From Escallonia rubra (taxonomy: Eukaryota; Streptophyta; Magnoliopsida; Escalloniales; Escalloniaceae), in assembly GCA_033065855.1 (NCBI GenBank), contig JAVXUO010002250.1, positions 37,851 through 101,850 of the forward strand: 64,000 nt of DNA. Reading direction: 5' to 3'. The notes under the pieces are model-generated. The model ran no database searches, was not told the DNA's origin, and was given only the letters and a program-made list of their open reading frames with translations. Both the position numbers and the translations under genes were made by a program. Shown piece by piece: positions 3,922 through 54,121 of the stretch. The first letter of the stretch is position 1, and the number at the start of each line of letters is the position of its first letter.

Positions 3922-4726
3922 TACAACAGTTGATTATCATTAGGGTGCTATATGAGTACAATTGAAACCCTCTGATTTAAAGTGAGATCATGATGCAAAC
4001 CGTAGGAGAAAAAAGAGGAAGGAAGAGAAAACGGGGGGACTCAGGCAGGTGGCGCCTACGATTTATTGTTCTTCAAGGAGGTATTAGAGGTAAACAATTC
4101 TTATTAAATTTGTTAAAAAGGAACTGGTCCGTGACCGTCCATTCCAGCTTGAATTGGGGCAAGGGGGATCGATCCCCTCCGCCACAGCCACCGCGTACCA
4201 GCGGAAGCCGTCAATGACGCGCTCCTTCTGTTCGCACCAAAAGTCGAACGCCTCAATTGGGCTCTCGGCACTCGACCTCAGAGCTCGTTGTTCAAGACTG
4301 GGGGTGCCATTATACCTCTTCCGACCTTTATCTCCACCCTGGTAAAAGAAATCTTTTAAATTTCTGTCTTCATTTGTTAATCTTCTTCTTCTGCTCAAAT
4401 TTGCCTACATATGCGGTGTTTTGACTTTTGCCTGAATATGAGGTTCTCGTGTATTGTTGATTACAGTATTTAACCGTTTTAACGGCTATCAGCGTGGCTT
4501 TAACTGTCGATGTTCGTTAGGGTTAGAAAAAAGAAGAAAGAAAAAACAATTCAGAGGAGGCTGTGATTAAAAAAGCTGGATAAGGTTAAATAATTAGGGA
4601 GGAAAGACTTTTCCTTGCCGTGCCCAGCAGCTAACCAGGAAACTAATGATTAGGATGAAGAAGAAGAAGAAAAATGGTGCCTTGAAAGGTTTCTCTCATC
4701 TTCCACCTTCACTGCCTGCTAGAAGC
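3922..4726. other. Upstream region of kinase A1
   Basis: From about 4580 the sequence matches the upstream regions of A2 and A3, including the purine-rich stretch before the start codon and the AGAAGCATG start context, so it probably holds the ancestral A promoter. Between 4084 and 4398 the minus strand is open for about 100 codons, but I recognise no domain and do not call it a gene. Confidence 0.4.
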
Positions 4727-17184: not shown

Positions 17185-20100
17185 TTACTGAGGCCGTCTT
17201 GGGCTTTCATTATCAGCATCGACTTGTACCAGTGTCTCCACTACTACTTCCATTGGTGGCCTAGTTTTGGGTTCAGTTCTAAGACATGCCAAAGCAAGCT
17301 GAGCAATGTGAACTGCCGCTTTAGAAGGATATTTTCCTTCCAACCTGGAGTCCATTATGTTCTTCAACTTTTTTCTACTAGCCAAAAAGGGTTTGGCCCA
17401 GTCAACCAAATTTTGCTGCCCACTTGGGCGTTTTAGATCAAGTGCCCTTAATCCTGTTAGCATTTCAACTAATACAACACCAAAACCGTAGACATCACTC
17501 TTCACGTACAAATGCCCTGTTTCATGAGTTTAATGCCAACATTATGACATGCCATTAATGTGTTTGAGCTCAATTTTTAAGAACAGGGCTACTAAAGCTC
17601 AAATGATTAAGAGGATTACCTGTAGCAATATACTCGGGAGCAGCGTAACCATATGTTCCCATAACACCAGTTGATACATGTGATTGACCAGCTGAGGGAC
17701 CCATTTTTGCCAACCCAAAGTCTGATAACTTTGCGTTATAGGACTGACAGAACAGCAGAAAACTCTTAGACTGGTTTAATGAGAAAATGAGTAGGTCATT
17801 TATATTGTTTGAACCAATTGCTGTAGAACTTACACCATCTAGCAGTATATTTGAGGCTTTGAAGTCTCTATAAATTACTTGTTTCTCAGATGTGTGCAAG
17901 AATGCCAGGCCCCGAGCGGCTCCTATCAACACCTTAATCCGCAAGTCCCATGGAAGCGGCTGAACAGCTGAGCCTCCTGCATCAAGGAAAGCAGAAAGAC
18001 ATGATATGTCAAGATTTTTGGTGAGAGTTTCATGGTGTGGTACAGCTCTTAAGTAAATCATTGTCTTACTTCCAAAAAGGTGGTCGTCCAAGCTGCCTTT
18101 CTGCATGAATTCATAGACAAGCAGTAGCTCTTTCTCCTCCCAACAGTATCCCAACAGTTTAACAAGGTTGGGATGAGATAACCTTCCGAGGAGTTTCAAC
18201 TCAGACTGCATGAATAAATGAATAAACATCAGCAGACAGGATTCAGTATAATTAGCAACGATCAGATAGTCCTTGCCAGGAATGAATATTCCATAGCATA
18301 GACTATTCCACAGTATATAGGCTGTAGGATATCAAGAAGTGGCTAATATCCAGCTCCCTTTTTGTCTACCCCCCACCCAACAAAAGAAAAAGCCCGGATG
18401 ATCCTGGGTCTCTTGGCATAGCACCAAGAGAGTTTATAAGCTAAACTAGCTGAAGCCCCAACAGTTTAGGAACATTGAACATTGCACATTGAAGTTTCTA
18501 AGAATGCATAAAAGATCATGCTAAATGTTCTAATTCACTACTTTAATCAATTATTTCGTATCCATTTGCCGCATGAAGGCTTGGAAGCACGATAATCTGT
18601 GTTTGTCTGCAGCTGATTCGGGATGAATATGAGAGGGCATGTAACATGCTTAGAATCACTTAACATTCGTAAAAAGCGGTGAAATTTGAGGTGTCCCTTG
18701 CCATAAAACTTACTTTGTAAATAGCAGAAGCTGTAATTTCTTAATCCTAAAATTACTTCACATTTCAACTCTCCAGCTGCAATCTGGATTTATATAGCAT
18801 GATAAATCAAAATTTGGCCCCATATTAATTAAGCTTTCAGCTGGCCGTAATACATTATAAAAATCAAGTAACTGCGGATCCCAAAACCAATTTGTAGTTG
18901 TCAATTACAATTAGGAACCCTGCAAAGCTATCAAATAAGAGTGTAACACATCTAAACTTTAAAGCATTAAATGAATAGAAGCCTGAGAACATGGCAATGC
19001 ATATGCAAATGACACTGTGGTTTCTTCTTAATTCAAAATAGTACAGATACCCCATCCCACCCACCACCACGGCCAATACAGGTGCACAAATTGAAACCTA
19101 CCTATCTATATCTATATATATATAAAAAGCTGAAGCCTTCGCTTAGAATCGCGACACGTAGGATTTTTAGAGCTCTATATTTACGCCACGTAAGACTTTT
19201 TAAGAGCATTCTCCTTCTGCCACGTAAGCTTCAACTCTGCATGTGGTAGTTCCCTAACTTAAGTGGGCTCTTTATATTTAGAGTCCAACTCTTTTGAATT
19301 AGATATATATAATCAAGAATCCTATTTGTTTTGGTATTCTTTTCCTTTCCTACTATATTTAACTCTTTCTTATAATTTATTATTAAAAAATTCGTAGGTC
19401 TACTTTACCCTATATTTGTAAACTTTATAAAATTAAGAAACTAATTTTACACCTTCTAAAACTCTACCTAATTAATATACTCATATATTAAGCCTTAATT
19501 TTGCTTATTAAAACCTCAAAAGTACTTTGAAATAACAATATAAAATCTCAAAAATATAAAGTGCGAAAATCATACCCTACTTACTAATTCTTTTTGTAAT
19601 TTTACAAAGTTTCATTCTAATCTATCATACAAATGTAGGCATAATCAATTAATTCGTAATTATTTTAACTTCATTTACATGTAAAACTTTTAATATACAA
19701 GGCTGTGTCTTTTTTACAGTACATCAAATATCAACTTAAAAATTAGGTATTGCAACTACAACAATATGTACCATTTGACAATAATTTAGCACTTCGCATT
19801 ATTAATTGGTTAACTTACTAGAATTTAATTTGATTAGTAGCACTTAAATAGACTTTTAATATGAAAAATATTTACAATCCTACTTCCTAAGTTTTTACAA
19901 TGGTTTTTACTAAACATTTTGTAGGTATATTTGGCCGAAGTTTTGTAAACCTTAACTATAAAACTGGAATATCAATTTTACATATTTTAAATCTCTATCT
20001 AATCAATCTATATTCTTATTAAGCCTTGAATTTTGACTAATAACACCTTAAAAGTACTTAAATATAACAAAATCAAATATGACAAATGTATACATGAGAA

Positions 20101-21469: not shown

Positions 21470-22767
21470 TGATTTCTTGAATGTTTAAGCTCACTTTTTT
21501 TTGGTGCAAAACTAAAATTAGTTCTAACATTACCTTTAAAATGGAGTAAAATTATAATTTGATGTGCAATAATTGATTATTTATTGCATGCTTTACTTTT
21601 TGAATGTTTTATTTTGTATGTTTTAATATTACTATTATTAATAATTTTGAGTATATAAAAAAATTAAACGATTACAAACTATATGCAAATGTCCCCATTA
21701 AATTTTACAAATCTAAATTCAAAGACAATAAAAATTTTATAAGACACAAGTTTTTTTTTTTGTATATGTGTAAGTACGATAAGCTAGGCATGAGTAAAAG
21801 TTCTTCTCCATTTGACATTTCTTTTACTCAAATCACGTAGTAAAATATTATTTCTAGCAATACATGTTACATAATAATTAAAAGAGGATATAAAGAATTA
21901 GAAAATAAGAATGTTAGTGAAAACTAAATACATTTTCACTTTTATAGTAGTTTTAGATACATTGATATAATCTATTAGCATAGTGATGTATCAAAATGAG
22001 ATACATTTTCAGTATTTTACACAGTTTTGTCAATATAATTCTAATAGTATTAAGTAATGCTATTTGATTCGTGAAATCTATATTCATGAGTAATGTCAAT
22101 TATTATGATTATTCATCGATGCAGCGAAAGTCATTATATTTGTTATTATTTTGATTTAAAGCATTGTTAACTATATTATAATATATGATTAATGAGAAGT
22201 AAATTATATCTTAAACCGACCAAATAACATCTCTACCCGTGCATTTGCACGGGTCTATTAGCTAGTCTACTTAAACACAGATGCACACACACGTCTTAGA
22301 TGAGTTGGAGATCAATTACATTCAAGCATTATCCTAAAACAAGTTGAAGAAGAAATCAAATGGTAGTAACTAAGAAATGCATCAGACTCTTGATTCATTC
22401 AAATATAACTAAATGATAATTACAATAAGAAGTACCTTAAACTCTTTCAACCCTTGCTGGCCCTTGGAATGTAACCTCTTGATAGCAACTACAGATCCAC
22501 TTCCATTCCTCGAGTTTGCCATTTCAAGCCATCCCCTGTAAACTTTCCCAAAACCTCCTTCTCCCAACACCGTATCTTGTCTGAAATTCCTAGTTGCAAT
22601 CTTAAGTTGTGAGAGAGGGAAAATCTTTAAGCTGGGGACGGGCAAGATCTGCCCGGTGGGACACGCCTCATCACCTCGACTTGCTGTCGAGAATGCACTT
22701 TTCCCGGAGACGGCAACGTTGATACTGCCTGAAGATGCTGTGTTGCTAGTTGTCTGTGATATACGTA
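17185..22767 (-). CDS. Kinase B2: RLCK-VII (PBL-like) kinase, exons 2-6
   Basis: Exons in order of transcription: 22767-22436, 18205-18070, 17976-17834, 17743-17620 and 17516-17185. All junctions are GT-AG and all phases agree, giving about 355 residues. The kinase domain is complete: [45 protein letters not shown] and a normal C-lobe. The activation segment reads STGVMGT where B3 and B4 have STRVMGT. No first exon is visible. Aligning the upstream sequence with B1 shows that the exon-1 segment is missing, joined as CCGGTTG/TATTATG, so the N-myristoylation start is gone. The intron after exon 2 is about 4.2 kb because it holds a Helitron. With no start codon in place, the gene may be dead, may use a new first exon, or may be transcribed from kinase A2 upstream. 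Confidence 0.75.
19105..22265 (+). mobile_element. Non-autonomous Helitron, 3161 bp, in B2 intron 1
   Basis: The element starts with TC (TCTATATCTATATATATA). It ends with the hairpin CCCGTGCA-TT-TGCACGGG (22236-22253), 12 nt and the terminal CTAG, and it is inserted between A and T. The paralogous introns of B3 (about 50.77 kb) and B4 (about 62.82 kb) read CCTA/TCTACTTAAAC without the insert, so both ends are exact. It is very AT-rich, includes a long AT dinucleotide run, and shows no Rep/helicase gene. It is oriented opposite to B2. Confidence 0.92.
21384..21466. repeat. AT dinucleotide microsatellite
   Basis: This is an uninterrupted run of about 40 AT units inside the Helitron. Confidence 0.9.
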
Positions 22768-22996
22768 CTGAAACACAGAAGTACAGACCCAAAACAAAGA
22801 AATTAAGATCCAAAAAGATTAGAAAAGAAACAGGGTATCCGGTAAAGACCATCAAATAGCAGCTAAATGACTAACAATTTAAGTTCTTCAGAAAGAGAAG
22901 CAAAACTGCATAACAAGTTAAAAACAACTGCATGGGGATTTTGTTTCTACTATAATTGAGTCTGCCTGCCCGAGATTTGCAGACCAACTAAACTAA

Positions 22997-24656: not shown

Positions 24657-26186
24657 CTAAGAAAATAAAGCCCTAAACTGACACAAGATCGAGGAGGTTG
24701 GTATATACGATTTACCCGAAATCATCCGAGCCGAGATAGAGACAAACTGCCGCACCTTCCTTGTAAAAGTCATTCTACTGGCAGGAGAAGATTCTGCATT
24801 GTTTTGGATGCCAGAAGACCCACCAGTAGTACTGGTAACTATCTCCTCAAGAAGAGAAGAATCTACGGTGTCGGCGATGACATGAAAGGCTTTCTCTACT
24901 ACAGGAGAATCAGCTCTCTCTTGCAATACCAGTGCATACTCGAGCTGGACCATGACCTCAGCCATTGTAGGGCGTTTCATAGGAAGATTGTGCAGGCATT
25001 GCTCCGCAATTTTCACAACTGCAATCAAACAATTCGGCGAGATTTTCCCCCTCAAACTGGGATCAATACTCTGATCTAGTATTCCTTCTTTGATGCAGTA
25101 TTTGGCCCATGCGGCTAGACCCCATTGCTCCTCATCCAGCGTTACATCTACTGCCGGCCTCCCGCACAGCACTTCGAACAATACCACACCAAAGGCATAC
25201 ACGTCCGATTTCCTCGTTAGTCTGCGGGTCAAGTAATACTCGGGATCCATATACCCAAATGTGCCTCTCACATCGGTGCTTACGTGGCTGCATGACTGAT
25301 TTGCCGGGCCTAATCTTGACATCCCAAAGTCCGCAATCTTAGCTGGCCAATTCTCGCCCAACAAGATGTTTGAGCTCTTCACATCACGATGTATAACTCT
25401 GTGCAGGACACTAGTACCAGTGTGAAGATAGTCCAATCCACGGGCGGCGCCGATGCATATCTTGAGGCGCTGCACCCAAGAAAGAGGAGATTTATTACTT
25501 CTATCACGCTTGTGCAGATGGTCAGCAAGGCTACCAAGGAGTATGTACTCATACACAAGGATCATATCGTGGACGTTGTCGCAGTAACCAATGAGAGAGA
25601 CGAGGTGGCTGTGTCGAAACTTGGAAAGCATCTCGATCTCTGTCCAAAACTGGGGGGCTCCTTGCCTGGACATGGAACTCAGCCGCTTGATCGCCACGGT
25701 AGTTGTTCCATTGTCGATGAGCCCTCTGTACACCTTTCCGAACCCTCCCTGTCCGATGACCAAAGCATCATCAAAGTCGCGGGTGGCCAATTGGATATCG
25801 GCAAGAGAAAACTGACGGCATAGATGCTCCGTAAAGTAGGCAGACGGTCTAACTTGATTACCGGAGTTTTCTTCATGAAGTTGTCTCAGCTTATAAACAA
25901 AAATGTTCAGAAGGGTGATGAAAAGTACCAAATCCGTCACAACCAAATTAATCACTCTTCGCAGCGTTGGAGTCCAAGAATTGGAACCATGTCGCGGAGG
26001 CTCCTTGGGTTCCAACTTGCCTAGATGGTTGCCGGAGTAACAAAACTTTGAGTCAACAACGTTATCAAGAGGAGATTGATCATAAGGCGCGGGAAAGTTA
26101 TACGCGTCGGTAAAAATTAGTAGTAGATGATAGTACAAGAGAAAGAAGTAGATGAGGGTGGAAGTTGGTGATGGAGCCCGGAACAT
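24657..26186 (-). CDS. Kinase A2: CrRLK1L-type receptor-like kinase with minimal ectodomain
   Basis: This is an intact 509-residue frame. From the N-terminus: a strongly hydrophobic signal peptide (about 1-27); a short outer segment of about 45 residues containing FPAPYDQSP; a membrane helix (about 82-103, VLFITLLNIFVYKL); a juxtamembrane region; the kinase core with [30 protein letters not shown] and GTFGYMDPEYY; and a Ser-rich tail. The sequence is FERONIA-like throughout the kinase, but the roughly 350-residue malectin-like ectodomain of that family is absent. It is expected in the plasma membrane, facing the cytoplasm. Without a ligand domain it may act as a co-receptor or adaptor, or as a decoy; that is inference. 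Kinase B2 lies downstream in the same direction. A donor (TTTCGG/GTAAAT) near the end allows an alternative C-terminus. Confidence 0.85.
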   Translation of the reverse strand: MFRAPSPTSTLIYFFLLYYHLLLIFTDAYNFPAPYDQSPLDNVVDSKFCYSGNHLGKLEPKEPPRHGSNSWTPTLRRVINLVVTDLVLFITLLNIFVYKLRQLHEENSGNQVRPSAYFTEHLCRQFSLADIQLATRDFDDALVIGQGGFGKVYRGLIDNGTTTVAIKRLSSMSRQGAPQFWTEIEMLSKFRHSHLVSLIGYCDNVHDMILVYEYILLGSLADHLHKRDRSNKSPLSWVQRLKICIGAARGLDYLHTGTSVLHRVIHRDVKSSNILLGENWPAKIADFGMSRLGPANQSCSHVSTDVRGTFGYMDPEYYLTRRLTRKSDVYAFGVVLFEVLCGRPAVDVTLDEEQWGLAAWAKYCIKEGILDQSIDPSLRGKISPNCLIAVVKIAEQCLHNLPMKRPTMAEVMVQLEYALVLQERADSPVVEKAFHVIADTVDSSLLEEIVTSTTGGSSGIQNNAESSPASRMTFTRKVRQFVSISARMISGKSYIPTSSILCQFRALFS

Positions 26187-31868: not shown

Positions 31869-33166
31869 CTTGTGTTGAAAACTAAATCATTTATATCTTC
31901 ATCGTTTGATATGAAGGATATGGGGGAAGCCAATGTTATTTTGGGAATGAAAATAATTAGATCATCGGATTCTATTTCTTTGTCGCAGTCTCATTATATT
32001 GAGAAAATTTCAAAGAAATTTAATCACGAGAATTGTGCCCCGGTTACTACCCCATATGACCCTTCTATTAAGTTGAGGGCAAATGAAGGGAAATGTGTTT
32101 CAGCTAGAGTATTCTAGTGTTATTGGCAGCTTGATGTATATTATGCAATGTACCCGACCAGATATAGCCTTTGCGGTCGGTGTTTTGAATAGGTTTACTC
32201 ATAACCCTGGGCAAGTCCATTGAAATGCTGTGTTTAGAGTACTTAAGTACCTTAAGGGCACAATGAACTATGCATTAACTTACAAGAAATTTTCTGCCGT
32301 TTTGGAAAGGTACACATATGCAAACTGGATCACGGACACAGATAAAATAAAGTCCACAAGTGGTTGGATATTTACCATAGGTGGAGGTGCTATTTCTTGG
32401 GGTTCCAAGAAGCAAACTTTGATTTCGTATTCGACCATGGAGTCCGCGTTTATTGTTTTGGCAATGGCGGTCAATGAAGCAGAATGGCTAAGAGACCTGT
32501 TGATAGAGATTTCTCTATGGCCTAAGCCAATGCCTGTTATTTCTATATTCTGCGATAACGAGGCAGTGTTAACGCGGGCATATAGTAAGGCTTACAATGA
32601 GAAGTCTAGACATATAAGTCTTAGACATAGTTATGTGAGAGAACAATTAAGCAAATGAATTGTTACTGTTAGTTATGTAAAATCCAAAGGTAATTTGGCG
32701 GATCCCTTTACAAAAGGCCTAGGCAGGGATATAATATGGCAGACTTCCAGGGAGATGGGTTTGAAGCTCATGAAATAAGAGAGATAAGATGGACGTGGAA
32801 ACCAACTAGATAATAGAGTAACCTCTAGTCTTCTAGTTCAATGAAAAAACACGTTGTATTTATAACCAAAGATGCACTAAAAAATGAAGATTTTGATCTC
32901 CATGCAATCTCAAGGTAGTGCATACTTGTATGGAGAACAAGAGGAGGGTGGGAGTTATTTCCTTAATAAATCTATGTCCTTAAAGGGGGGTGTAAGTCAT
33001 ACAAGTGCACCTTAGTAGATTTAACTATATAAGTGTGGGAAGTGGGGCCGCTTCTACGAGATTTGAGCTAATCTCTATGGCATTTATGAAAATCTTAAGA
33101 TGTAGCACAAGGCCGTAAATGTGCAGGTATTTGAAAATTTGGTTGTGAAGTTCTACACATAGTAGT
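31869..33166 (+). mobile_element. Ty1/copia remnant, left part
   Basis: The + strand reads as the end of a copia polyprotein: late reverse transcriptase (MKDMGEANVILGMKI; later [15 protein letters not shown]) and RNase H (TYANWITDTDKIKSTSGWIF; later ISYSTMESAFIVL). Stops are present at about 32115 and 32221. A polypurine tract (TAAAGGGGGG, 32981-32990) is followed by TGTAAGTC, the likely start of a 3' LTR, which is interrupted at 33166 by the Tat element and resumes at 43077. The 5' part of the element is missing. Confidence 0.8.
33162..33166 (+). repeat. Target site duplication of the Tat element, left
   Basis: GTAGT, repeated at 43072-43076, a 5-bp duplication as expected for gypsy integrases. 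Confidence 0.88.
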
Positions 33167-33558
33167 TGATATGGGAGAAAAACCATGGCTTAGGATGAAG
33201 ACACATGTCTTCATCCGAAAAGAGTCAAACTATTCTTCAGAATCAACAGAGCCGTTGTAAACTCCATTAAGTCTGGTAACTCCCCATTTAATGGTACTAA
33301 ACTGTCCATTCAATAGTTTAATGGACCATTTAGTAGAGTAACCCCCTCATAAATAAAGTGCTATATAAAGAAAATGAGGAGATGAACAAATGTAAGGTCT
33401 AAATCGAGAAACCACATTCTCTCTTTTATACAGATTTCTGACTTAAGCATCAGAGTTTTCCTCACCAGAAACTCTTCTGGCGAATCACCAGTGTTGACTG
33501 TGTTGTGCAGGTCTATTCACAAGGAAGTCAAGTTGCGTCCCAGATTTCATCAGCAACA
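33167..33558 (+). repeat. 5' LTR of the Tat element
   Basis: It starts TGATATGGGAG and ends CATCAGCAACA, 392 bp. TGCTATATAAAGAAA at about 33.36 kb is a likely TATA box for genomic transcription. Confidence 0.93.
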
Positions 33559-33597: not shown

Positions 33598-35145
33598 ATG
33601 GCTGAAAATCCAAACCCCCCTCCCATAAATCAAGATGGTGCTCTTGCTTCTAGCTCGTCATCTTCTTCTGAAATTCGAAATTTAGTTCTCGGAGGAACCA
33701 CTTCTCAACTGCGTCCTGATCGTGGTAAAGGGGTTGCCAATACTCCAACGTCCACCACGTTGCCAATCTCACCTCCGGTAAACCTCAGAGTTGTTCTCCC
33801 GTCACCTTTACCAACCGCTGGCCCGTCCAAACTTCCAACTCTCATAGAAACAACGACAGCTGCCACTTACACGACACCCGCCATCAGGAACACACAAGTT
33901 GATCTTTTGGCTGTCATCTCTTCAATGCAAAAATCTATTGAGAACTTGCAAGCGGCAATTGAACAACGATCTGAACCACGTTCAGACCCACACCTTATAG
34001 CCGCACACACCAACAATGCACACAAACAACCGGATCGTAATCACGAGAAGCACAAAAATGCAACTACGTACACACACGACCCGAATCAGTATTTCATTCA
34101 CATCGATGATGAGCGGCGCAATCCTTGGCATAGGAGACAAGAAGACTCTTATGACGTCCATACTAGGAGAGAGACATCTAGGCAAACGGAGATAAACTAT
34201 CATGAAGCTCCTTCTACCCGAAGGACAGTACTTCTCCGCTCTAAAGAGCATCGACCTGAATTCTACACGAATGCGCCCGTTATAGTTGGACGTCCATTTA
34301 CGGAAGACATCGAATTCTTTCCGACTCCAACACATTTCAAAATGCCCCAGTGTGATGCATATGACGACACAGGAGATCCAATGGAGCACTTGGCCCGCTT
34401 TACATCATGCATGAACTTGCACCTTGTCCCGGATCAAATCATGTGCCGAGCTTTTCCTGTTACACTAAAGGGAGCCGCACACGCCTGGTTCCAGCATTTA
34501 TCACCCCGCTCCATATCTTGTTGGGCGCAGTTGGCTGAATCTTTTCATGGAAATTTCCTAACAAGTCGGATTCAGAGGAAAAATTCTTCTGCACTCTTCC
34601 GAATAGTGCAAGGGCCTAAAGAATCCCTGAAGTCCTATTATGCACGCTTTAACGCGGAAAAACTCATTATCGATCACCTCGATTCGGGAGTAACCTTTGC
34701 GGCAATGGCCAGAGGAGTACGGCCAGGAACGCCCTTGCGCTTTTCGCTAAACAAGAGGCCGCCAGAGAATATGACTGATCTTCTAGACAGAGTAGAAAAA
34801 TACCTCCGAGCTGAGGAAGACTCGGCGCACCCTCAGGAAGAGCCAAGTTCAAACCAGAAGCGGCGAGATAGAACTGAGAACCGCGATCCGGATAACGAGT
34901 TAAAACGACCTCGGATCACAACGCCCAGACCTTTTACGCCTCTTACTGCCTCTCGAGAGCACATTCTTAATCAAGTCAAAGGGCAAAACATTCTCAAATG
35001 GCCCAAACCTATGAGACTGTCGGCTGACAAAAGAGATGACAAGTTGTACTGCCACTTCCATAAAGATCATGGTCATACAACTGAAGAATGCAAGGTCCTC
35101 CAGCGCGAGATCGAGAATCTCATCAGTAAAGGGCATCTCAAGTAA
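33598..35145 (+). CDS. gag: Gag of the Tat element
   Basis: A 515-residue frame starts 18 bases after the primer-binding site. A low-complexity N-terminus is followed by the retrotransposon Gag domain (FTEDIEFFPTPTHFKMPQCD, later HAWFQHLSPRSISCW) and a variant zinc knuckle near the end (YCHFHKDHGHTTEECKVL). Gag packages the element RNA in cytoplasmic particles. The frame closes at a TAA (35143-35145). Protease and reverse transcriptase continue in the same frame beyond it, so this stop probably arose by mutation within a single gag-pol frame. Confidence 0.85.
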   Translation: MAENPNPPPINQDGALASSSSSSSEIRNLVLGGTTSQLRPDRGKGVANTPTSTTLPISPPVNLRVVLPSPLPTAGPSKLPTLIETTTAATYTTPAIRNTQVDLLAVISSMQKSIENLQAAIEQRSEPRSDPHLIAAHTNNAHKQPDRNHEKHKNATTYTHDPNQYFIHIDDERRNPWHRRQEDSYDVHTRRETSRQTEINYHEAPSTRRTVLLRSKEHRPEFYTNAPVIVGRPFTEDIEFFPTPTHFKMPQCDAYDDTGDPMEHLARFTSCMNLHLVPDQIMCRAFPVTLKGAAHAWFQHLSPRSISCWAQLAESFHGNFLTSRIQRKNSSALFRIVQGPKESLKSYYARFNAEKLIIDHLDSGVTFAAMARGVRPGTPLRFSLNKRPPENMTDLLDRVEKYLRAEEDSAHPQEEPSSNQKRRDRTENRDPDNELKRPRITTPRPFTPLTASREHILNQVKGQNILKWPKPMRLSADKRDDKLYCHFHKDHGHTTEECKVLQREIENLISKGHLK

Positions 35146-38100
35146 TTTGTCAAAGCAAATAACCGACAAGGACACAGGGGAAATCAAAGAAGGCCAGACA
35201 AAGCACCGCCGAGGGACCCTCCTGTGATCAACACCATTTCTGGAGGACCAAACGTTGGAGGATTAACCAACTCTTCCCGCAAAGCTTACGCCCGACAGGT
35301 TAATTCAACTTAGGGTCCTGCAAAATGGTCGAAAGCTTCAACATCATTGGAATTCACTGATTCTGATCTGGGAGGAATGATTTGTCCCCACGATGATGCT
35401 CTTGTCATCACTTTGCAAGTGGATGCATACAGTGTCAAACGTATCCTAGTCGACACTGTCAGCTCAGCGGATATTATCTTTGAGGAAGCCTTCTCACAGA
35501 TGGGAATCTCTAAAGAAAGAGTAAAACCCATCTCTTCACCTCTCTATGGTTTTACCGGAGCATCTACCCCAGTCGAAGGAATCATTCCACTTACGGTCAT
35601 TGCGGGAACTACACCTCTTCAGAGTGTTCAAACCATCGACTTTCTTGTGGTCAACATCAAATCATCGTATAACGGGATTTTAGGCCGAACATGTCTAAAT
35701 AAATTGCGAGCCGTTGCTTCCACTTATCACCTCGCAATGAAATTCCCTACGCCATAAAGAGTTGGTGTAGTGAAAGGAGATCAAGCGACGGCCCACAAAT
35801 GTTATATAGCGTCGTGCAAAGTAGAGACGTTCAACATAGACGATCAGCGTGATGAACAAATGATGAAGCACGCCACCCCTATTGAAAAACTGGTATCCAT
35901 ACCACTGAAAGACGGAGACAATGAACGTCTATTGCGAATAGGTTCTACCTTAGATCCCACCATCCGGGATTAGCTGACCGCTTTCCTTCGCTCTAATGCA
36001 GATGTCTTCGCATGGAGTGCAGCGGATATGCCGGGGATTGATCATTCTGTGATCACCCATCGTCTCTCGGTTGATCCTAAGCACAAACCGGTCCGACAAA
36101 AGAAACGCCCGTTCGCTCCAGAAAGGCACGCCATAATCAAACAAGAGGTAGACAAACTCCTGATGGCCGACTTCATCACATAAATTGACTATCTAGAATG
36201 GATAGCCAATGTAGTCATGGTACCCAAGGCAGGCACTGGCAAATGGCGCATCTGCATCGATTACACGGATTTAAACAAGGCATGTCCCAAGGATAGCTAT
36301 CCTTTGCCACGCATCGACACTCTAATCGATGCCACATCCGGACATGAACTCTTGAGTTTCATGGATGCCTTCTCCGGGTACAACCAAATCCGAATGCAGG
36401 AGGAAGATGTGGCCAAAACGGCCTTCATCACGGATCAAGGCCTCTTTTGCTACAAGGTCATGCCATTTGGATTGAAGAACGCTGGAGCTACTTACCAACG
36501 ACTGGTTGACAAAATTTTCCAACCTTTGGTGGGCAAGAATATGGAGGTGTACGTAGATGACATGCTCGTCAAGAGCTTGCAAGAACAGACCACATCTCAG
36601 ATTTGGAAGAATGCTTTGCTGTACTACGTAAGTATAACATGCGCCTCAACCCAACAAAGTGTGCTTTTGGAGTATCCTCTGGAAAGTTTCTGGGCTTCAT
36701 GGTTTCTCACAGGGGTATAGAAGCTAATCTAGAAAAAATCAAAGCCATTCAAGATATGGCAGCACCACGAAGAATAAAGGAAATTCAAGTACTGACGGGT
36801 CGTATAGCCGCCCTAAACCGTTTCCTTTCCAGATCGGCTGAGCGTTGCCTCCCATTCTTTACTGCTCTTAAGAACATCAAAAATTTTGAGTGGACAGCTG
36901 AATGCCAAACATCATTCGAGGCATTGAAAGAATATTTGGCATCCCCACCTCTTCTCTCCAAGCCAATTGAAGGAGAAATGCTCTTCCTCTATCTAGCGGT
37001 AACCGATTTTGCCGTCAGTGTAGTACTCATCCGAGAACAGGATAGCAAACAATTCCCCATATATTATATTAGCAAAGTACTTCAAAGAGCCAAATTGCGC
37101 TATCCCACTACAGAAAAGCTCGCCTTTGCCCTTCTCATAGCCGCGAGAAAGCTCCGTCCGTACTTTCAATCACATACGATAACAGTGCTCACGGACAAGC
37201 CACTCAGACGGATACTGCACAAACCTGACTTATCTGGTCGTCTGGTTCCTTGGCCGGTTGAATTGGGAGAGTTCGACATACAATACAAGCCTCGTCTTTC
37301 TATTAAAGGTCAAGCATTAGCTGATTTCATTGTTGAATGCACCCTTCCAATTGATGAAGCCGAACCACACGTCCCCAACCAGAAATATTTGCATGGACGC
37401 TTTACGTCGATGGGTCGTCAAATACTATGGGCAGTGGAGCAGGACTTATCCTCAAAGGACCAGAAGGACTCGTTGTTGAATATGCCCTTCGTTTTAATTT
37501 TCAGGCATCTAACAACGAAGCCGAGTATGAGGCTTTGATAGCAGGAATGCACCTGGCTCATGCAATGAAAGCGCAAACCCTCCATGCTCATAGTGACTCT
37601 CAGCTTGTCGTGAAACAGCTATCAGGTGAATATGAAGCCCGTGACCCGAAGATGGCAGGTTATCTTCATAAAGTAAAAGAACTCGTAACATCTTTTGCGC
37701 AGTTCCGCATTGCTCACATCAGCCGAATAGACAATGTATCAGTTGATGCACTCTCGCGTCTAGCTTCGCTTGACCCGTCAGGATTTGGTCACACGGTCCA
37801 CTTGGAACTACTACATGAATCGAGCATCATTAGGCGTGAAACTTTGCAAATTGCGCAGGAACCATCCTGAATTGATCCCATCAAAGATTACCTTCTGAAA
37901 GGTACCCTGCCTCTTGACTCTAAAGATGCCAGACGGATCATTTCACGCTCAGCTCGCTATGCGGTAGTCGAATATGTACTTTACAAGCGATCATTCAGTC
38001 TCACCTACCTTCGTGCCTCACCCCAAAGGAGGCAGATTACGCTCTTCGTGAAGTCCATGAAGGTATTTGTGGCCAACACCTTGGGGGACGAGCCTTGGCT

Positions 38101-39103
38101 CATAAAGTCCTTCGACAAGGGTATTATTGGCCAACCATGTAGCATGACGCCTTGGAATAAACAAAGAAATGTGATGCATGTCAGCGCTTTGCCTCTATTC
38201 CCAAACAAGCGCCCATTCCTCTAAACATAATGAAAAGCCCAATACCTTTCATAATGTGGGAAATTGACATATTAGGCCCTTTTCCCCCTGCCTCCGCACA
38301 GCGTAAATTCGTAATTGTCACGATTGATTACTTCACCAAATTGGGTAGAAGCTGAGGCTTTAGCTACAATCACAGAAAAGAAATGTGAATAGTTCTTCTG
38401 GCGCGCTGTCATCTGTCGTTTTGGCATCCCACGTGTGCTTATCACTGATAATGGGAAACAGTTCGACAACGCAACATTTTGCACGTTTTGTGCTAACCTG
38501 ACTGTCGAGCATCATTTCACCTCGGTGGCGCATCCACAAACCAATGGACAGACAGAAGTTACCAACCGTACTCTCCTACAAGGATTAAAGAAAAGACTTG
38601 ATGGAGCGAATGGATTATGGGTGGAAGAGCTACCTAAAATTATCTGGGCGTACCATACCACGACACGCACCGCCACAGGTGAAACTCCATTCAGCTTGGC
38701 GTTTGGAACAGAGGCTCTCATTCCTCTCGAGATCGGTTTGCCATCAGTTCGGCTCATGACATACAATCCTGACACCAATGATAATGGCCTACGAAGCAAT
38801 CTGGACCTCCTCGAGGAAAAGCGTGATCAGGCCGCCATTCGCCTTGCTGCCTACCAGCATAGAGTGGCCAAGTTCTTTGATAAAAAAGTCCAACCACGCG
38901 CTTTTCGTATTGGAGACCTTGTTTTACGTCGATTGGACGCTTCATTTCCACGGGATGCTGTTGGAAAGCTCTCGCCAAATTGGGAAGGTCCATACAGGGT
39001 GGTTAAATTGGGAGGCCCAGGATCGTATCATTTGGAAATCCTGAATGGAAAAAAAATTCCCCGGACGTGGAACGCCAGAACTCTACGACGATATTATTCA
39101 TGA
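35146..39103 (+). pseudogene. pol: Pol of the Tat element (protease, RT, RNase H x2, integrase), broken
   Basis: Order seen: aspartic protease (35347-35757), with active site DTV where DTG is expected; reverse transcriptase (about 36.0-36.7 kb) with YVDDM; first RNase H (to about 37.3 kb); a second, archaeal-type RNase H (about 37.40-37.83 kb, NNEAEYEALIAGM, AHSDSQLVVKQL); integrase zinc finger (KCDACQRF at about 38.17 kb); catalytic core (ITDNGKQFDN, HPQTNGQTE); and C-terminal domain to 39103. In-frame stops lie at about 35143, 35311, 35755, 35971 and 36181, and several more between 37.87 and 38.43 kb. Frame changes occur near 36.59 and 37.39 kb. The element is dead for autonomous movement. 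Its last 670 bases remain open. Confidence 0.85.
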
Positions 39104-39389
39104 ACAAGACCAAAGTTGGGGGCCACCTACTCCTATATATTTTGCATCTTGCTCATGACCATGACCGTTCATTCTTCGGCTTTAGCCCAATTTTATTCTC
39201 TTCGGCGACAGCCCAATTTCATTTTTTCGCCCTATTGTATTAATCTTCTTTTCAGTCGGCTCAATATAGCTCGAGGTTTTTTAATGCAGTTGATATAAGA
39301 TAATCTCTTGCAAAAGGAGACTTTAATTCCATTAACATAATGTTTACATAGAAATCTCTAGTCTTAAAGTCAATTACAAAATAAAGATC

Positions 39390-41479
39390 CTACTCAGCAG
39401 CTTCGGGTGATGCGTCCTTCTCAGTATCCTGGGGTAGCTCAGCTCCTATCTCCATACACTGAGGAACCATCACCACTGCTGAAACAACACCAGACATCCC
39501 AAGACTTTGACTAGTTGAAGGACTAAGGTGCGCAGGGGCCTGAGAAATCACCCGAGCTTCAGCCACCTCCCTCCGATTGCTCTCGTCAGGAGCAACTTCA
39601 CGAGCATACTTATGCTCGTAAATACTTAGGTCCATATCGGCATAATCTTTCAAGATATCTTTCTTGCAAGCATTATAACCGTAGACCAAGGCTCTCTTCG
39701 AATCATGCAGACGCTGATCAGTATAGGCCTTAGACCTCTTGAAACTCTGAACAACATTCAGTCCAACATTCCTCTTCTCAGCCTCGAGTCGTTCAATTCG
39801 AGCCGCAAGAGAAACTTCAGAGAGTTGCACCTTTTGCAACGCCCTACTCAAGTCTTGCACTTTCTTCTCTGCTTCTCGACAAAAGTTATTTTCCACATGA
39901 ACACGTTTCCTCTCTTCATCCAGTACCTTCTCGGCAGCGATCAATTTCTCGGCCCCAATCTGCACTTGAGCTAGCGCCTGCAGAAGAAAGCGAGAAATAA
40001 AAAAACTAACAAAAATAAGAGGAAGAAAGGAAAAGAGCGCTCGCCATAATCTTACCTGCGAGGTTAGCTGAACCATCCCATTGGCTGTATTGCTAATATC
40101 ATAGCCAGAAAGTGTGACTCGATCCATTGGAATAATCCCCTTACTTGACCATTCCCAAGCCGTGCGGGAACTCTTAAAAATAGACTCCTTGATTGACAAA
40201 TTCCAGTCAGGCCTATGAGGAGTATCAGACCTAGCAGAGGATGAGGTACCAGCCCTGACCACTCTCTTCCTTTTGGATTGCTCATTTCCCTTGTCTTTAC
40301 TCGCAAGCCCAAGAACAATATCCTCAGTCATTGATCTCTTCGGCTGAGGTTCTTCCGTTAAAGCATCGAAATCCAAGTCCTGGACTCCTTCATCCACTCC
40401 ATGAACAGATGCCAATTCGTCTGGAATTATTTCTGCTAATACCCCTTGGGTATTAAAAAGGGGAGAGTCCACACGGCTGCCACCGACGCTTCCACAAGTA
40501 CCTTTTGAAGACATGGTTTCTGCAAAAGAAAAAGTGATGAGATCAAGGCAAACCATGACAAACTAAGACACTCATGCATAAGTACATTACCAGGATCATT
40601 CTCGCCCTCCTCTTCTTCGTCCAAATCCTCCTCGAGTGAAAAAATGATTCCACACTCACGAAGTTGGTCATTACTTAAGGGGTACTTTGACTCTAAAGGC
40701 TCGGCCGCTTTGAGCTTCTCAATATGATCTAGGTCAGTTTCATTCAGATTCTTTTCTTTCAACATATTACACGTCCTAGTATCACATTCTGGATGCCATA
40801 TATTATTGACGACATTTCTTTGAAACTTTGGAAGTTTCACGAATAGAAATCTATCTTTCCAGTGGTGGTTTGACGATGGAGGATGAGGAAACAAGTTGGC
40901 TTTAGCCTTTGAGCGCCGAGTTAAAAAATACCACCCAACTTGTCTAGTAATAGTACAAACGGTGAAGAACCACCTGAACACCCTCAATCTAGGTCGTAGA
41001 CCAAGCCTATGGCATTGGAATATAAAGAAAGATAAAAAGCGCCAGGCGTGAGGAGAAAATTGGCCGGGCGCCAAACCATATGCATTATTCAACACCCTGA
41101 TAAAGAAAGGATGTATTGGCACCCTAAACCCATTAACAACTGTGTCATAGTAAACCCCTATCTCATTTAAGGTAGACATATTGGCTGCTTCGCCGTCGCC
41201 AGGCAACCTCAAATTTACGCTTGGAGGAATTTCACATTTTTTCCTCAATGTCTTGAGATCATAACTACTCAGCCTACTCCTTAACGTATGAGCATCAAAA
41301 GGCTTAGGGCTCTGAGCCTTGTCGGCTAGAATCTCCTTAGCAGAAAGTCCCCTTGGCTCCTGATAAGGAATCAAAGGAATTCTTACTTCTAAGAATAAAG
41401 GGTCAAAAGTAGGTTCAACCCTAACGGATGTAGTACCTCTACTTAACTCAGAAACATGTTCATCTTCTTCTCTAGACAT
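39390..41479 (-). CDS. Antisense three-exon gene inside the Tat element
   Basis: Exons in order of transcription: 41479-40591, 40519-40056 and 39977-39390. The introns are 71 bp (40590-40520, GTAATG...TTTGCAG) and 78 bp (40055-39978, GTAAGA...TCTGCAG). Phases match, for 646 residues. Exon 1 resembles the plant family annotated as putative gypsy-type transposon protein (Pfam PF04195): VPIHPFFIRVLNNAYGLAPG, then AWRFLSFFIFQC. It ends in an acidic stretch. Exon 2 is Ser/Arg- and Lys-rich (KRKRVVRA). Exon 3 begins with a long Glu/Lys/Arg-rich coiled coil. The gene converges on integrase. Additional ORFs of either orientation are known in the 3' region of Tat elements, and their function is not established. 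Unlike pol, this reading frame is unbroken. A TATA box is about 190 bp upstream. Confidence 0.75.
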
Positions 41480-41668
41480 ATTTTCTGGATCTACAACAAG
41501 GAATTCAAAAGAAAATAAATTTGAGACTTCCTTGAAGAAAGAGAAAAACCTTCAAACACAAAGAACTCAGAATTTTCCTCCGGCGAACTCTCGAAATCAC
41601 CCACTTCTTCCCTCAACTGAAAGAAAAGTGAAAAGTGAAAAGTGAAGAATGAAAGTGAAAGAACCCTT

Positions 41669-41680
41669 CTTTTATAGGGA
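41669..41680 (-). promoter_or_regulatory. TATA box of the antisense gene
   Basis: On the minus strand this reads TCCCTATAAAAG, a strong plant TATA box about 190 bases before the start codon at 41479, followed by a pyrimidine-rich leader. It suggests that the antisense gene has its own promoter inside the element. Confidence 0.6.
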
Positions 41681-41774
41681 ATTTGCCCTGGACAGATCCC
41701 AAGGTAAAAAGTGGACACGTGTCGCCCATCGGTTAAAATAGTAAGAGATCAAACTTACTTCTATACCCCCCGAC

Positions 41775-42630
41775 ATCAACTACGCCTCTACTCGCTCGGC
41801 CGAGTAGACGAGCTACCCCACCAGGCTTACGCCTCTACTCGCTTGGCCGAGTAGACGAGCTGCCTCACAAGGCTTACGCCTCTACTCGTCAGGCCGAGTA
41901 GACGAGCTGCCTCACCAGGCTTACGCCTCTACTCGGCAGGCCGAGTAGACGAGCTGCCTCACCAGGCTTACGCCTCTACTCGGCAGGCCGAGTAGACGAG
42001 CTGCCTCACCAGGCTTACGCCTCTACTCGCTTGGCCGAGTAGACGAGCTGCCTCACAGGGCTTACGCCTCTACTCGGCAGGCCGAGTAGACGAGCTGCCT
42101 CACCAAGCTTACGCCTCTACTCGCTTGGCCGAGTAAACGAGCTGCCTCACGGCTTACACCTCTACTCGTCAGGCCGAGTAGACGAGCTGCCTCACCAGGC
42201 TTACGCCTCTACTCGGCAGGCAGAGTAGACGAGCTGCCTCAAGGCTTACGCCTCTACTCGCCAGGCCGAGTAGACGAGCTACCTCAAGACTTACGCCTAT
42301 ACTCATCTGGCCGAGTAGAAGAGCAGCCAAGCACTCTACTCGCTAAGCCGAGTAGACGAGCTGCCTCAAGGCTTACGCCTCTACTCGTCTGGCCGAGTAG
42401 AAGAGCAGCCAAGCACCCTACTCGTCTAGCCGAGTAGATGAGTTGCATCCATGCTTTAGCTCTCTACTCGTCTGGCCGAGTAGATGAACTGCATCCATAC
42501 TTCAGCTCTCTACTGAACTGGCCGAGTAGATGAGCTGCATATATGCCTTGGCTCTCTACTCGTCTGGCCGAGTAGATGAGCTGCATATATGCCTTGGCTC
42601 TCTACTCGTCTAGCCGAATAAACGAGACAC
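41775..42630 (+). repeat. Array of about 19 palindromic 47-bp repeats
   Basis: The unit is close to 47 bp. Each has a dyad of the form CTACTCG-(6 nt)-CGAGTAG followed by ACGAGCTGCCTCA. Early copies are regular and later ones (from about 42.29 kb) diverge. Tandem repeats in the 3' region are known for Tat/Retand elements and can seed satellites. The array lies between the antisense promoter and the 3' LTR. Confidence 0.9.
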
Positions 42631-42660
42631 CTATACTAAAATCCCACGCTCGTTCACGAG

Positions 42661-42679
42661 TATAGGATTGGGGGGCAAA
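42661..42679 (+). other. Polypurine tract region
   Basis: AGGATTGGGGGGCAAA ends directly at the TG of the 3' LTR, the place where plus-strand DNA synthesis is primed. Confidence 0.75.
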
Positions 42680-43071
42680 TGATATGGGAGAAAAACCATG
42701 GCTTAGGATGAAGACACGTGTCTTCATCCGAAAGGAGTCAAACTATTCTTCAGAATCAACAGAGCCGTTGTAAACTCCATTAAGTCTGGTAAGTCCTCAT
42801 TGAATGGTACTAAACTGTCCATTCAATAGTTTAATGGACCATTTAGTAGAGTAACCCCCTCATAAATAAAGTGCTATATAAAGAAAGGGAGGAGATGAAC
42901 AAAGGTAAGGTCTAAACCGAGAAACCACATTCTCTCTTTTATACAGATTTCTGACTTAAGCATCGGAGTTTTTCTAGCCGGAAACTCTTCCGGCGAATCA
43001 CCAGTGTTGACTGTGTTGTGCAGGTTTATTCACAAGGAAGTCAAGTTGCGTCCTAGATTTCATCAGCAACA
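42680..43071 (+). repeat. 3' LTR of the Tat element
   Basis: This is 392 bp, the same length as the 5' LTR, with about 17 differences by eye, mostly transitions. It is followed by GTAGT (43072-43076). Confidence 0.93.
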
Positions 43072-43076
43072 GTAGT

Positions 43077-47017: not shown

Positions 47018-47676
47018 TACGGAGTCTCTCTTTTTATTTACACGATTTCTTCTGTATTGGTGGGCAATATAGTAAATCCTGTAGCGCTATAACTAGCAAA
47101 TTTTATGACTATGATGACCATTAACCAACTGTCTGGTCTGTGTGTGTATGTGTGTGTGTGATAAACTATCTTGTCTAAAATCTCACATATTCCTAAAGCT
47201 TCCTTATCTGAACAACTTTGTACATGCAGCTCATCAAATCCATGGGTTACACTCGGATCATCTACCATTTAGCCGGGGTTATTTAAGGAAGAGGTGCAGC
47301 ATAAGGCTTTCTTTGTTAGGCGATGGTGATCCCACTATTAGTTGCAGACTGGTGGGCTTAAGGATACAGTGTTTAACCATTCACAAATTGAAAAGGATGG
47401 AACACCTCTTGCCCTTTGCATCAACTGATGATGGTGTAGCTGTTAATGGCAGTCCCCAAGCAAGTAATTACAAGCACAAATGAGAACTCCCCTCCTCGTA
47501 CAGAGAGGTGATTGTAACAGAGACCAACATAGACCAACATAGAACTCCCACAAACAATGGAGACTGTATTTTCCTAGATCTGGAAGTAATGGGTCCGTTG
47601 ATTCGGAATCGAGAAGAAGATTAAAGAGACTGAAGACATTGACGGAGAAAGAAGGCAGAAAATGGCGTACCTGTCG

Positions 47677-47850
47677 GCGGCGGAGGAAGACGAGAGAAGA
47701 CTCTGCTCGTCGGCGGCGGAGGAAGACGAGAGAAGACTCTTCTCGTCGGCGGCGGAGGAAGACGGGAGAAGACTCTGCTCGTCGGCGGCGGAGGAAGACG
47801 AGAGAAGACTCTTCTCGTCGGCGGCGGAGGAAGACGGGAGAAGACTCTGC
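47677..47850 (+). repeat. 36-bp tandem repeat, about five copies
   Basis: The unit TCGTCGGCGGCGGAGGAAGA plus CGAGAGAAGACTCTGC is repeated in register, with alternating CTGC/CTTC and GAG/GGG. It reads as a 12-residue SSAAEEDERRL(C/F) repeat in one frame and an Arg-rich repeat in another. Confidence 0.85.
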
Positions 47851-48833
47851 TCTCCTTTCTTTGTGCTTTGGTTTCCTTTTCTAACCTATCCCTAATTTCT
47901 TATCCGAGTGCTCCTGGATTAAAACAATACCACCCCCCCCCAGGTACAAAGTTATCCCACTTAAGTGGGATAAAACCCATCCTCCGGATTTCTTATCCGT
48001 CCATTATTAGCGTGTCCAAACGCCGGATAGGATAAAAATAATCCCTATCCGGGGTCTTATCCGGCGCGCCAAACACGGCCTTGGGGTTATTGCAAATCTC
48101 TAATTTTCCTTCTAAGCCACTCTAAAATCAAGGAGTGCTATAGCTGCTTCTTTTAATTCACTGCCTAGGGAAAAATTAAAGGCATCAAGATATATATCAA
48201 AGACCTTTATTAAATGGAGTTCTTCTTTACTTTCCTGATAATTTGCTCTAAAAATCGAGCAATAAAGCTATAGCTTTTCTTTTAAGGCACTACCTAGGGG
48301 ATACAATTAAGATCTTGAATTTTACCGGAACATGACTGGGAATCAGAAAATCAGTTTTCAGCAAACCTGAAACAAACTTGACTCTATGTAAATCTAGCAC
48401 AGGGTTTGCCCAACCACATTCACAATAAAGTCGGAACCGCTGCTCCATAGATATAGATGCTAGATTTGACCTCATCACATCTTGCAAATGCTTGAATCAC
48501 TTGGCAAGCGCAAAGCTTCTTAGCGAATTTGCAAGCAGATTTGTATTAACATTATGTATTACATTTTTAACGAGTTATTGTCATGCTTTCAAAAGTATTT
48601 GACATTTTTATTTAGAAATGCAATATACGTACCAAACCCACCTTAACACTCCATGAGACCACCATTTACCATCTTGATCGAAAGACCTTCTCGTCGTTGG
48701 AAGTGGTAATGCTGAAGTTACCATGCTTGTGGTCAGTTTTGGGAGGATCGATTCAAATCCTGTCTCGAATGCAGAGGGGAACGATGGCGCAAAGGTAGCT
48801 GCCCAACTAGATAAGTGGAATTGTGTGAAGAAT

Positions 48834-52633: not shown

Positions 52634-54121
52634 TTAAGTCCAATCAATTCCTATCCTAAGAGAATAATGCCCTAAACTGACACAGGAGGAGTTTGGTATA
52701 TACAATTTACCTGAAATCATGCGAGCCGTGACAGACAAAAACTGCCGCACCTTCCTTGTAAAAGTCTTTCTACTGGCAGGCTTTCTAATCTCCTGTACTG
52801 CAGAAGGTTCCGCATTATTGTCTTGGATGCCAGAAGACCCACCAGTATTACTAACTATCTCCTCAAGTAGAGAAGAATCTACGGTGTCGGCGATGACAGG
52901 AAAGGCTTTCTCTATTACAGGAGAGTCGGTAGTTCTCTCCTGCAGTGCCAATGCATACTCAAGCTGGACCATGACCTCAGCCATTGTGGGGCGTTTCATA
53001 GGAAGATTGTGCAGGCATTGCTCCGCAATTTTCACAACTGCAATCAAGCAATCCGGCGAGATTTTCCCCCTCAAACTGGGATCGATACTCTGATCTAGTA
53101 TTCCTTCTTTGATGCAGTATTTGGCCCATACGGCTAGACCCCATTGCTCCTCATCCAGCGTCATATCTACTGCCGGCCTCCCGCACAGCACTTCGAACAA
53201 TACCACGCCAAAGGCATACACGTCCGATTTCCTCGTTAGTCTGCGGGTCAAGTAATACTCGGGATCCATATAGCCAAATGTGCCCTTCACATCGGTGCTT
53301 ACATGGCTGCATGACTGATTTGCCGGGCCTAATCTTGACATCCCAAAGTCCGCAATCTTAGCTGCCCAATTCTCGCCCAACAAGATGTTTGAGCTCTTCA
53401 CATCACGATGTATAACTCTGTGCAGGAAACCAGTACCAGTGTGAAGATAGTCCAATCCACGGGCGGCGCCGATGCATATCTTGAGGCGCTGCACCCAAGA
53501 AAGAGGAGATTTATTACTTCTATCACGCTTGTGCAGATGGTCAGCAAGGCTACCAAGGAGTATGTACTCATACACAAGGATCATCTCGTGGACGTTGTCG
53601 CAGTAACCAATGAGAGAGACGAGGTGGCTGTGTCGAAACTTGGAAAGCATCTCGATCTCTGTCCAAAACTGGGGGGCTCCTTGCCTGGACATGGAACTCA
53701 GCCGCTTGATCGCCACGGTAGTTGTTCCATTGTCGATGACCCCTCTGTACACCTTTCCGAACCCTCCCTGTCCGATGACCAAAGCATCATCAAAGTTGCG
53801 GGTGGCCAATTGGATATCGGCAAGAGAAAACTGACGGCATAGATGCTCCGTAAAGTAGGCAGACGGTCTAACTTGATTACCGGAGTTTTCTTCATGAAGT
53901 TGTCTCAGCTTATACACAAAAATATTCAGCAGGGTGATGAAAACTATTATGGCCGTCACAACCAAATTAATCACTCTTCGCAGCGTTGGAGTCCAAGAAG
54001 CGGAACCATGTCGCGGAGGCTCCTCGGGTTCCAACTTGCCCAGACGGTTGCGGGAGTAAACAAAACTTTGAGTCAGCAACGTTACCAAGAGGAGATAGAT
54101 CATAAGGCGCGGGAAAGTCAT
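52634..54121 (-). CDS. Kinase A3: CrRLK1L-type receptor-like kinase, new signal peptide
   Basis: A 495-residue frame. The kinase part is nearly the same as A2 ([41 protein letters not shown]) with a membrane helix VVTAIIVFITLLNIFVYKL. The N-terminus differs. At the position of the A2 start the frame meets a TAG, but an ATG 50-60 bases on opens another frame that reads as a hydrophobic signal peptide (MTFPRLMIYLLLVTLLTQSF). An extra T then brings it into the A2 frame at about the tenth residue before GKLEP. The malectin domain is missing. The tail is one of the longer versions. Unlike A1 and A2, the acceptor of the downstream candidate exon is deleted, so this copy probably ends at 52634. Confidence 0.8.
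   Translation of the reverse strand: MTFPRLMIYLLLVTLLTQSFVYSRNRLGKLEPEEPPRHGSASWTPTLRRVINLVVTAIIVFITLLNIFVYKLRQLHEENSGNQVRPSAYFTEHLCRQFSLADIQLATRNFDDALVIGQGGFGKVYRGVIDNGTTTVAIKRLSSMSRQGAPQFWTEIEMLSKFRHSHLVSLIGYCDNVHEMILVYEYILLGSLADHLHKRDRSNKSPLSWVQRLKICIGAARGLDYLHTGTGFLHRVIHRDVKSSNILLGENWAAKIADFGMSRLGPANQSCSHVSTDVKGTFGYMDPEYYLTRRLTRKSDVYAFGVVLFEVLCGRPAVDMTLDEEQWGLAVWAKYCIKEGILDQSIDPSLRGKISPDCLIAVVKIAEQCLHNLPMKRPTMAEVMVQLEYALALQERTTDSPVIEKAFPVIADTVDSSLLEEIVSNTGGSSGIQDNNAEPSAVQEIRKPASRKTFTRKVRQFLSVTARMISGKLYIPNSSCVSLGHYSLRIGIDWT

Follow-up and report, generated by a model that had tools for sequence, protein, structure and literature searches.

A probable spliced antisense TRP28 gene beside a palindromic array in a Tat/Retand-type retrotransposon of Escallonia rubra

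On the strand opposite to gag and pol, a Ty3/gypsy retrotransposon of Escallonia rubra carries what is best explained, as a whole, as a TRP28 gene of three exons with its own TATA promoter, encoding a regulator that binds the DNA of its own element; we give this reading a probability of about 0.7. We infer transcription, splicing and the action of the protein from a gene model, a domain, an element and an array that can each be read off the DNA. The analysis covered a window of 64,000 nt, i.e. the whole stretch of contig JAVXUO010002250.1 (assembly GCA_033065855.1) under study, and all coordinates are window positions. As a class, such genes are already published as antisense PF04195 ORFs (PMC11963269, PMC7264820), and to judge from its sequence the present one is very probably the aORF-3R/TRP28 gene of a Ty3/gypsy retrotransposon of the Tat/Retand lineage.

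The antisense gene runs on the minus strand from 41479 to 39390. As proposed in an earlier, sequence-only reading of this DNA, it has a TATA box, a start codon and three exons, which together give 646 codons and a stop, with no internal stop. The 190 nt between TATAAA and the start codon (41669-41480, minus strand) contain no ATG. Its parts are the following.

41676-41671, minus strand: TATAAA of the putative antisense promoter
40591-41479, minus strand: exon 1, 889 nt, with the ATG at 41479
40955-41149, minus strand: PF04195 (Transposase_28 / TRP28), residues 111-175, E 6.8e-15, 55.5 bits with a cut-off of 26.2
40520-40590, minus strand: intron 1, GT-AG, 71 nt, phase 1, 46% T
40056-40519, minus strand: exon 2, 464 nt
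39978-40055, minus strand: intron 2, GT-AG, 78 nt, phase 0, 53% T
39390-39977, minus strand: exon 3, 588 nt with the stop

Splice sites were scored with general plant site frequencies rather than fitted ones; pairs were considered if their sites lay 60-200 nt from each other and both exceeded 2 bits. The two introns that had been proposed, with matching phases, outscored every other donor-acceptor pair of the region, 40055/39978 ranking first with 13.6 bits and 40590/40520 second with 12.1 bits; the third-best pair reaches 9.4 bits, and the best pair in gag or pol, on either strand, 7.8. Among 3000 Markov sequences of the same dinucleotide make-up, 33 held one pair of at least 12.1 bits and none matched both introns. 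Taken as single sites, the acceptors 40520 and 39978 rank first and second of 174, the donor 40055 ranks first of 120 and the donor 40590 only fourth. The exons contain 25-30% T, against the 46% and 53% of the introns. Furthermore, the longest stop-free run on the minus strand, reading through intron 2, spans 390 codons, whereas none of 2000 Markov sequences exceeded 172. The whole gene sits between the end of pol (39103) and a tandem array, and hence is not the shadow of a sense coding sequence. Altogether, this makes it very probable that the antisense frame is a spliced gene. Intron 1 alone is required by the frame, intron 2 being itself open (ORF 40556-39390); retention of intron 2 would add 26 residues in frame, most of them hydrophobic. 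Codon usage, scored after training on gag and two kinase ORFs from the window, gave the annotated frame a slight advantage in every exon, yet a short intron scored equally high in one frame, and this measure was therefore set aside as non-discriminating.

By its structure, the host element is a Tat/Retand-type Ty3/gypsy retrotransposon with 392-bp LTRs, a 5-bp target site duplication and two RNase H domains.

33162-33166 (left) and 43072-43076 (right), no strand: target site duplication GTAGT, 5 bp
33167-33558, plus strand: 5' LTR, 392 bp, TGATAT...GCAACA, from alignment to the 3' LTR, with ends TG...CA
33598-35145, plus strand: gag ORF, open, 515 aa, PF03732 with E 1e-12
35146-39103, plus strand: pol, broken, with RT, RNase H, RVT_3 and integrase pieces in order
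42665-42679, plus strand: purine-rich tract, a putative PPT, read from the letters just before the 3' LTR
42680-43071, plus strand: 3' LTR, 392 bp

The two LTRs align without gaps and are identical at 375 of 392 positions, and the 17 differences correspond to a K2P divergence of 0.045. In pol, Pfam places RVT_1, RT_RNaseH, RVT_3, Integrase_H2C2 and rve in this order across 36184-39100, distributed over three frames, with the Integrase_H2C2 and rve matches falling under their Pfam cut-offs. RT_RNaseH is matched with E 1e-16, and RVT_3, found in the next piece of pol with E 8.1e-19, is taken as the additional RNase H (aRH). An aRH besides the RT-linked RNase H is described as a mark of the Tat clade, and its position between the first RNase H and the integrase as a mark of Ogre and Retand elements within that clade (PMC6317226). 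Both are found here, which supports the Tat gypsy assignment made in the sequence-only reading, as is the antisense TRP28 ORF between pol and 3' LTR that is expected of Retand (PF04195, minus strand, 41149-40955). Likewise, the region from pol to the 3' LTR (3576 bp, 39104-42679) and the LTR length of 392 bp lie inside the ranges given in the Retand survey, 2933-6566 bp and 315-1194 bp, respectively (PMC11963269). No second locus matching the exons or gag was detected in the 64-kb window (tblastn, E 0.01), and no relatives were retrieved from viral_contigs (exon 1, RT piece and integrase piece) or genome_contigs (exon 1), collections that we assume to be poor in plant elements.

Elsewhere in the window, three similar receptor-like kinase ORFs form, judged by eye from their translations, a local gene cluster (4646-6234, plus strand, split over two frames; 24657-26186, minus strand; 52634-54121, minus strand), and there are more kinase-like pieces at 17570-18229 and 22409-22855 (minus strand). 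Just upstream of the element, an ORF at 32230-32658 (plus strand) looks by eye like the RNase H end of a copia-type polyprotein. A 36-bp unit is present in five head-to-tail copies with 95% matches at 47673-47852.

It had been proposed that sense gag-pol has collected many stops and that the antisense gene was thus either lucky or kept. The first part holds for pol, where our own reading of three frames, leaving out the stop that ends gag, counts 8 in-frame stops and 4 frame changes, but not for gag, which is open over 515 codons. We computed the stops expected since insertion from the LTR-derived rate and its transition bias, with bounds set by the 95% limits of the 17 LTR differences. For the readable pieces of pol (3645 of 3958 bases), 2.66 stops are expected against the 8 observed, so that the contrast with pol is real; the probability of at least 8 is 0.006 as a point estimate, 0.013 with rate uncertainty and 0.068 at the upper bound. 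For the antisense gene 1.44 stops are expected (0.84-2.31 at the 95% bounds) and none is observed, an outcome with P = 0.24 (0.43-0.10 at the bounds) that does not discriminate between luck and retention; the intactness of the antisense gene can hence be understood without selection on this copy. In gag, 1.09 stops are expected and none is observed (P = 0.34). If the excess in pol is real, decay of pol may have preceded the last jump, which the element would have made with borrowed enzymes. Since gag is open as well, the excess points toward such earlier decay of pol rather than toward a special protection of the antisense gene. Comparing lesions by raw length, the 12 in pol versus none in gag and the antisense gene give 0.0005 (0.008 for the antisense gene alone), and by stop hazard the 8 stops all in pol give 0.005 (0.03 for the antisense gene alone). 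This contrast was dropped as proof of selection, because the gene was picked for its intactness, the placement of an intron may mask a frame change, and the lesions were counted by ourselves.

The same figures bear on an account that is compatible with our main reading, namely that the gene works in the family while this particular copy is just young and expresses nothing. An expectation of only 1.44 stops, a gag that is open too and a pol already broken all agree with such a relic, nothing in the sequence opposes it, and we consider its chances about even; it concerns this copy, not the family. For the family, TRP28 is present in 61 of the 63 Retand clusters tabulated in the survey and missing in two (Vicient 2025, PMC11963269). 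Table 1 of that survey has, by our count by eye, 15 rows out of 63 from which GAG, AP, RH or INT, or more than one of these, is missing; TRP28 is retained in each of the 15, once in a short ORF, whereas the text speaks of ten defective clusters (PMC11963269). The table is in line with a decay of pol before the last jump, and the keeping of TRP28 in defective clusters accords with a gene acting most effectively in cis; TRP28 is so common, however, that the contrast in retention by itself proves nothing.

Turning to the encoded protein, the PF04195 region that the sequence-only reading had suggested for exon 1 was recovered by HMM search well above the cut-off, whereas Pfam gave no match for exon 2 and at best E 0.14 for exon 3. 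Exon 2 contains KRKR at residue 379 of the spliced frame, within SKRKRVVR, and exon 3 contains KRSK; going by a general consensus, we take both SKRKRVVR and KRSK to be NLS-like. AlphaFold2, run on the single sequence, models exon 3 as one helix over residues 2-127 of the exon, with a pLDDT of at least 90 at 102 of 195 residues. Heptad periodicity of exon 3 is best in one register (P = 0.07). Of the coiled coil proposed for the last exon, the long and confident helix is thus borne out while the periodicity is weak, which leaves a coiled coil plausible but weakly supported. The corresponding single-sequence run on exon 1 gave no usable fold (mean pLDDT 36.5), and a search of PDB sequences returned weak matches alone (E 0.17 and above).

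Upstream of the antisense gene, three further features are found.

41714-41723, no strand: GACACGTGTC, a palindrome centred on a putative G-box, 37 nt upstream of the antisense TATA
41781-42640, minus strand: tandem array preceding the antisense promoter on its upstream side, with 18 units, each 37 or 45-47 bp long, plus a truncated one
42706-42729, no strand: perfect 24-bp palindrome centred on GACACGTGTC, in the 3' LTR

The array holds 19 palindromic cores of the type TCTACTCG-N6-CGAGTAGA. By eye, three types of unit can be told apart, which differ in their linkers and have this core in common. Mean column conservation over the 19 cores is 0.97 in the arms, 0.84 in the linkers, of which 7 of 27 columns are fully conserved, and 0.75 in the spacer. 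Of the 19 units, 14 have two exact arms when 7 bp are counted and 13 when 8 bp are counted; where a core departs, it does so on one side, and compensatory arm changes are absent from the 19 cores. On its plus strand the window contains CTACTCG 17 times, always inside the array; the complement is also present 17 times, 16 of them in the array and one at 54740. At 0.90, the array has a higher CpG ratio than the LTRs (0.35 and 0.57) yet resembles gag (0.92) and pol (0.83), and the ratio was thus discarded as a special feature.

GACACGTGTC itself occurs twice in 64 kb, in the antisense promoter and in the 3' LTR, where the 24-bp palindrome around it is the longest even perfect palindrome of the window apart from (AT)n; the copy in the 5' LTR (33193-33216) carries one central difference. 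Among 2000 Markov versions of the 110-bp promoter stretch, 146 had a word of at least 10 bases in common with the LTR (P ~0.07). A shared ten-base word is hence not rare, and the idea that one host factor controls both LTR and antisense promoter via GACACGTGTC was reduced to a lead and is only that.

We propose that RNA polymerase II would transcribe the antisense gene leftward from near 41645, and that the two short introns would be removed from the transcript; these introns would outlast transposition, since reverse transcription acts on the sense RNA alone. The protein would enter the nucleus via KRKR and pair through its helical C-terminal part, and its PF04195 region would bind the element's own DNA, the palindromic array that immediately precedes the promoter being the most plausible site; transcription or silencing of that copy would thereby be regulated. 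TRP28 is predicted to bind DNA, its function still to be assigned according to the 2025 survey (PMC11963269). That the protein is a nuclear regulator which binds DNA and controls transcription or silencing of its own element is put forward tentatively, at slightly less than even odds, and that the array is its target appears doubtful, though the array is a candidate by position and form. Only about half of the recently active Retand elements are reported to contain arrays (PMC11963269), so an array can be no universal target; moreover, array units can stay alike through unequal exchange without any function. Going further, gene and array might form a single self-recognition module, in which the paired protein sits on TCTACTCG-N6-CGAGTAGA sites and shields its own copy from silencing in the manner of VANC proteins acting for VANDAL transposons, a proposal by analogy that we regard as unlikely.

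Alternatively, the antisense transcript rather than a protein could act, by pairing with the sense RNA and giving rise to siRNAs or blocking reverse transcription. The layout indeed implies opposed transcription, and the possibility has been raised before (PMC7264820), yet a spliced frame of 646 codons, a conserved domain and introns that keep the frame would not be needed for it, and we judge it improbable. Less probable still is that two separate antisense ORFs, one with TRP28 and one helical, lie side by side, with intron 1 merely marking where the frame shifts from one to the other. Of the 104 antisense ORFs in the survey, 57 contain TRP28 (PMC11963269), the ORFs 41479-40436 and 40556-39390 could each stand by themselves, intron 2 can be read through, and the low rank of donor 40590 as a single site fits as well. 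Against this, the best acceptor of the region, 40520, sits where the frame must change, with a fitting donor 71 nt before it, and the T-rich introns have, as a pair of pairs, no match in the Markov sequences. Capture of a host gene fragment in reverse orientation, for which introns would be expected from captured genomic DNA, is very improbable given a domain found in nearly all tabulated Retand clusters and described as without similarity outside TEs (PMC11963269).

A spliced antisense gene is thus the reading that we retain. It resembles the Retand antisense TRP28 ORFs in its domain, its antisense orientation, its position between pol and 3' LTR and an array in the region; the survey counts ORFs and gives 'Smc' as an additional domain matched in the elements (PMC11963269), whereas in our gene model TRP28 and the helical region belong to exons of a single gene. 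The antisense gene of maize Grande, GENE23, is likewise reported to have its own promoter and to encode a nuclear protein (via PMC7264820), promoter and nuclear location being predictions in our case; this likeness is one of description. The 2020 review called for a look at spliced antisense transcripts (PMC7264820). The word 'intron' is absent from the main text of both PMC11963269 and PMC7264820, and the matches listed in a literature search included no description of splicing in a plant antisense TRP28 gene. From HBZ of HTLV-1, which is similarly an accessory gene, it is known that an LTR element can influence transcription through a spliced antisense gene; unlike the present gene, HBZ starts in the 3' LTR, and the likeness is a functional analogy only (PMC1459196).

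For the neighbourhood of gene and array, VANC and the VANDALs, which are DNA transposons, offer an analogy of layout only. VANC is a TE-encoded protein whose targets are often tandem repeats in the noncoding DNA of the TE itself (PMC5735166, PMC10398659); the motif of VANC21 is a non-palindromic nine-base word, unlike the palindromic cores of the array described here. An anti-silencing factor of the VANC kind is recognized by sequence-specific binding to noncoding repeats of its own element and by a loss of methylation, and the element agrees with this in layout.

In summary, the gene model is real, well-formed and ordinary in its class, and, owing to its spliced structure and the palindromic array next to it, TRP28 function becomes easier to test. 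The 2025 survey has antisense TRP28 genes in almost every recently active Retand element that it covered (PMC11963269), and a model that specifies exons, splice sites, a promoter and putative targets makes the question of TRP28 function testable. One spliced gene may explain antisense ORFs that have been counted separately; should splicing be the rule, ORF-counting surveys would have broken single genes up into several. If true, the proposed self-recognition module would at one stroke assign a role to TRP28 and to the family-specific Retand arrays, and would explain why the antisense gene is kept where parts of gag or pol are lost.
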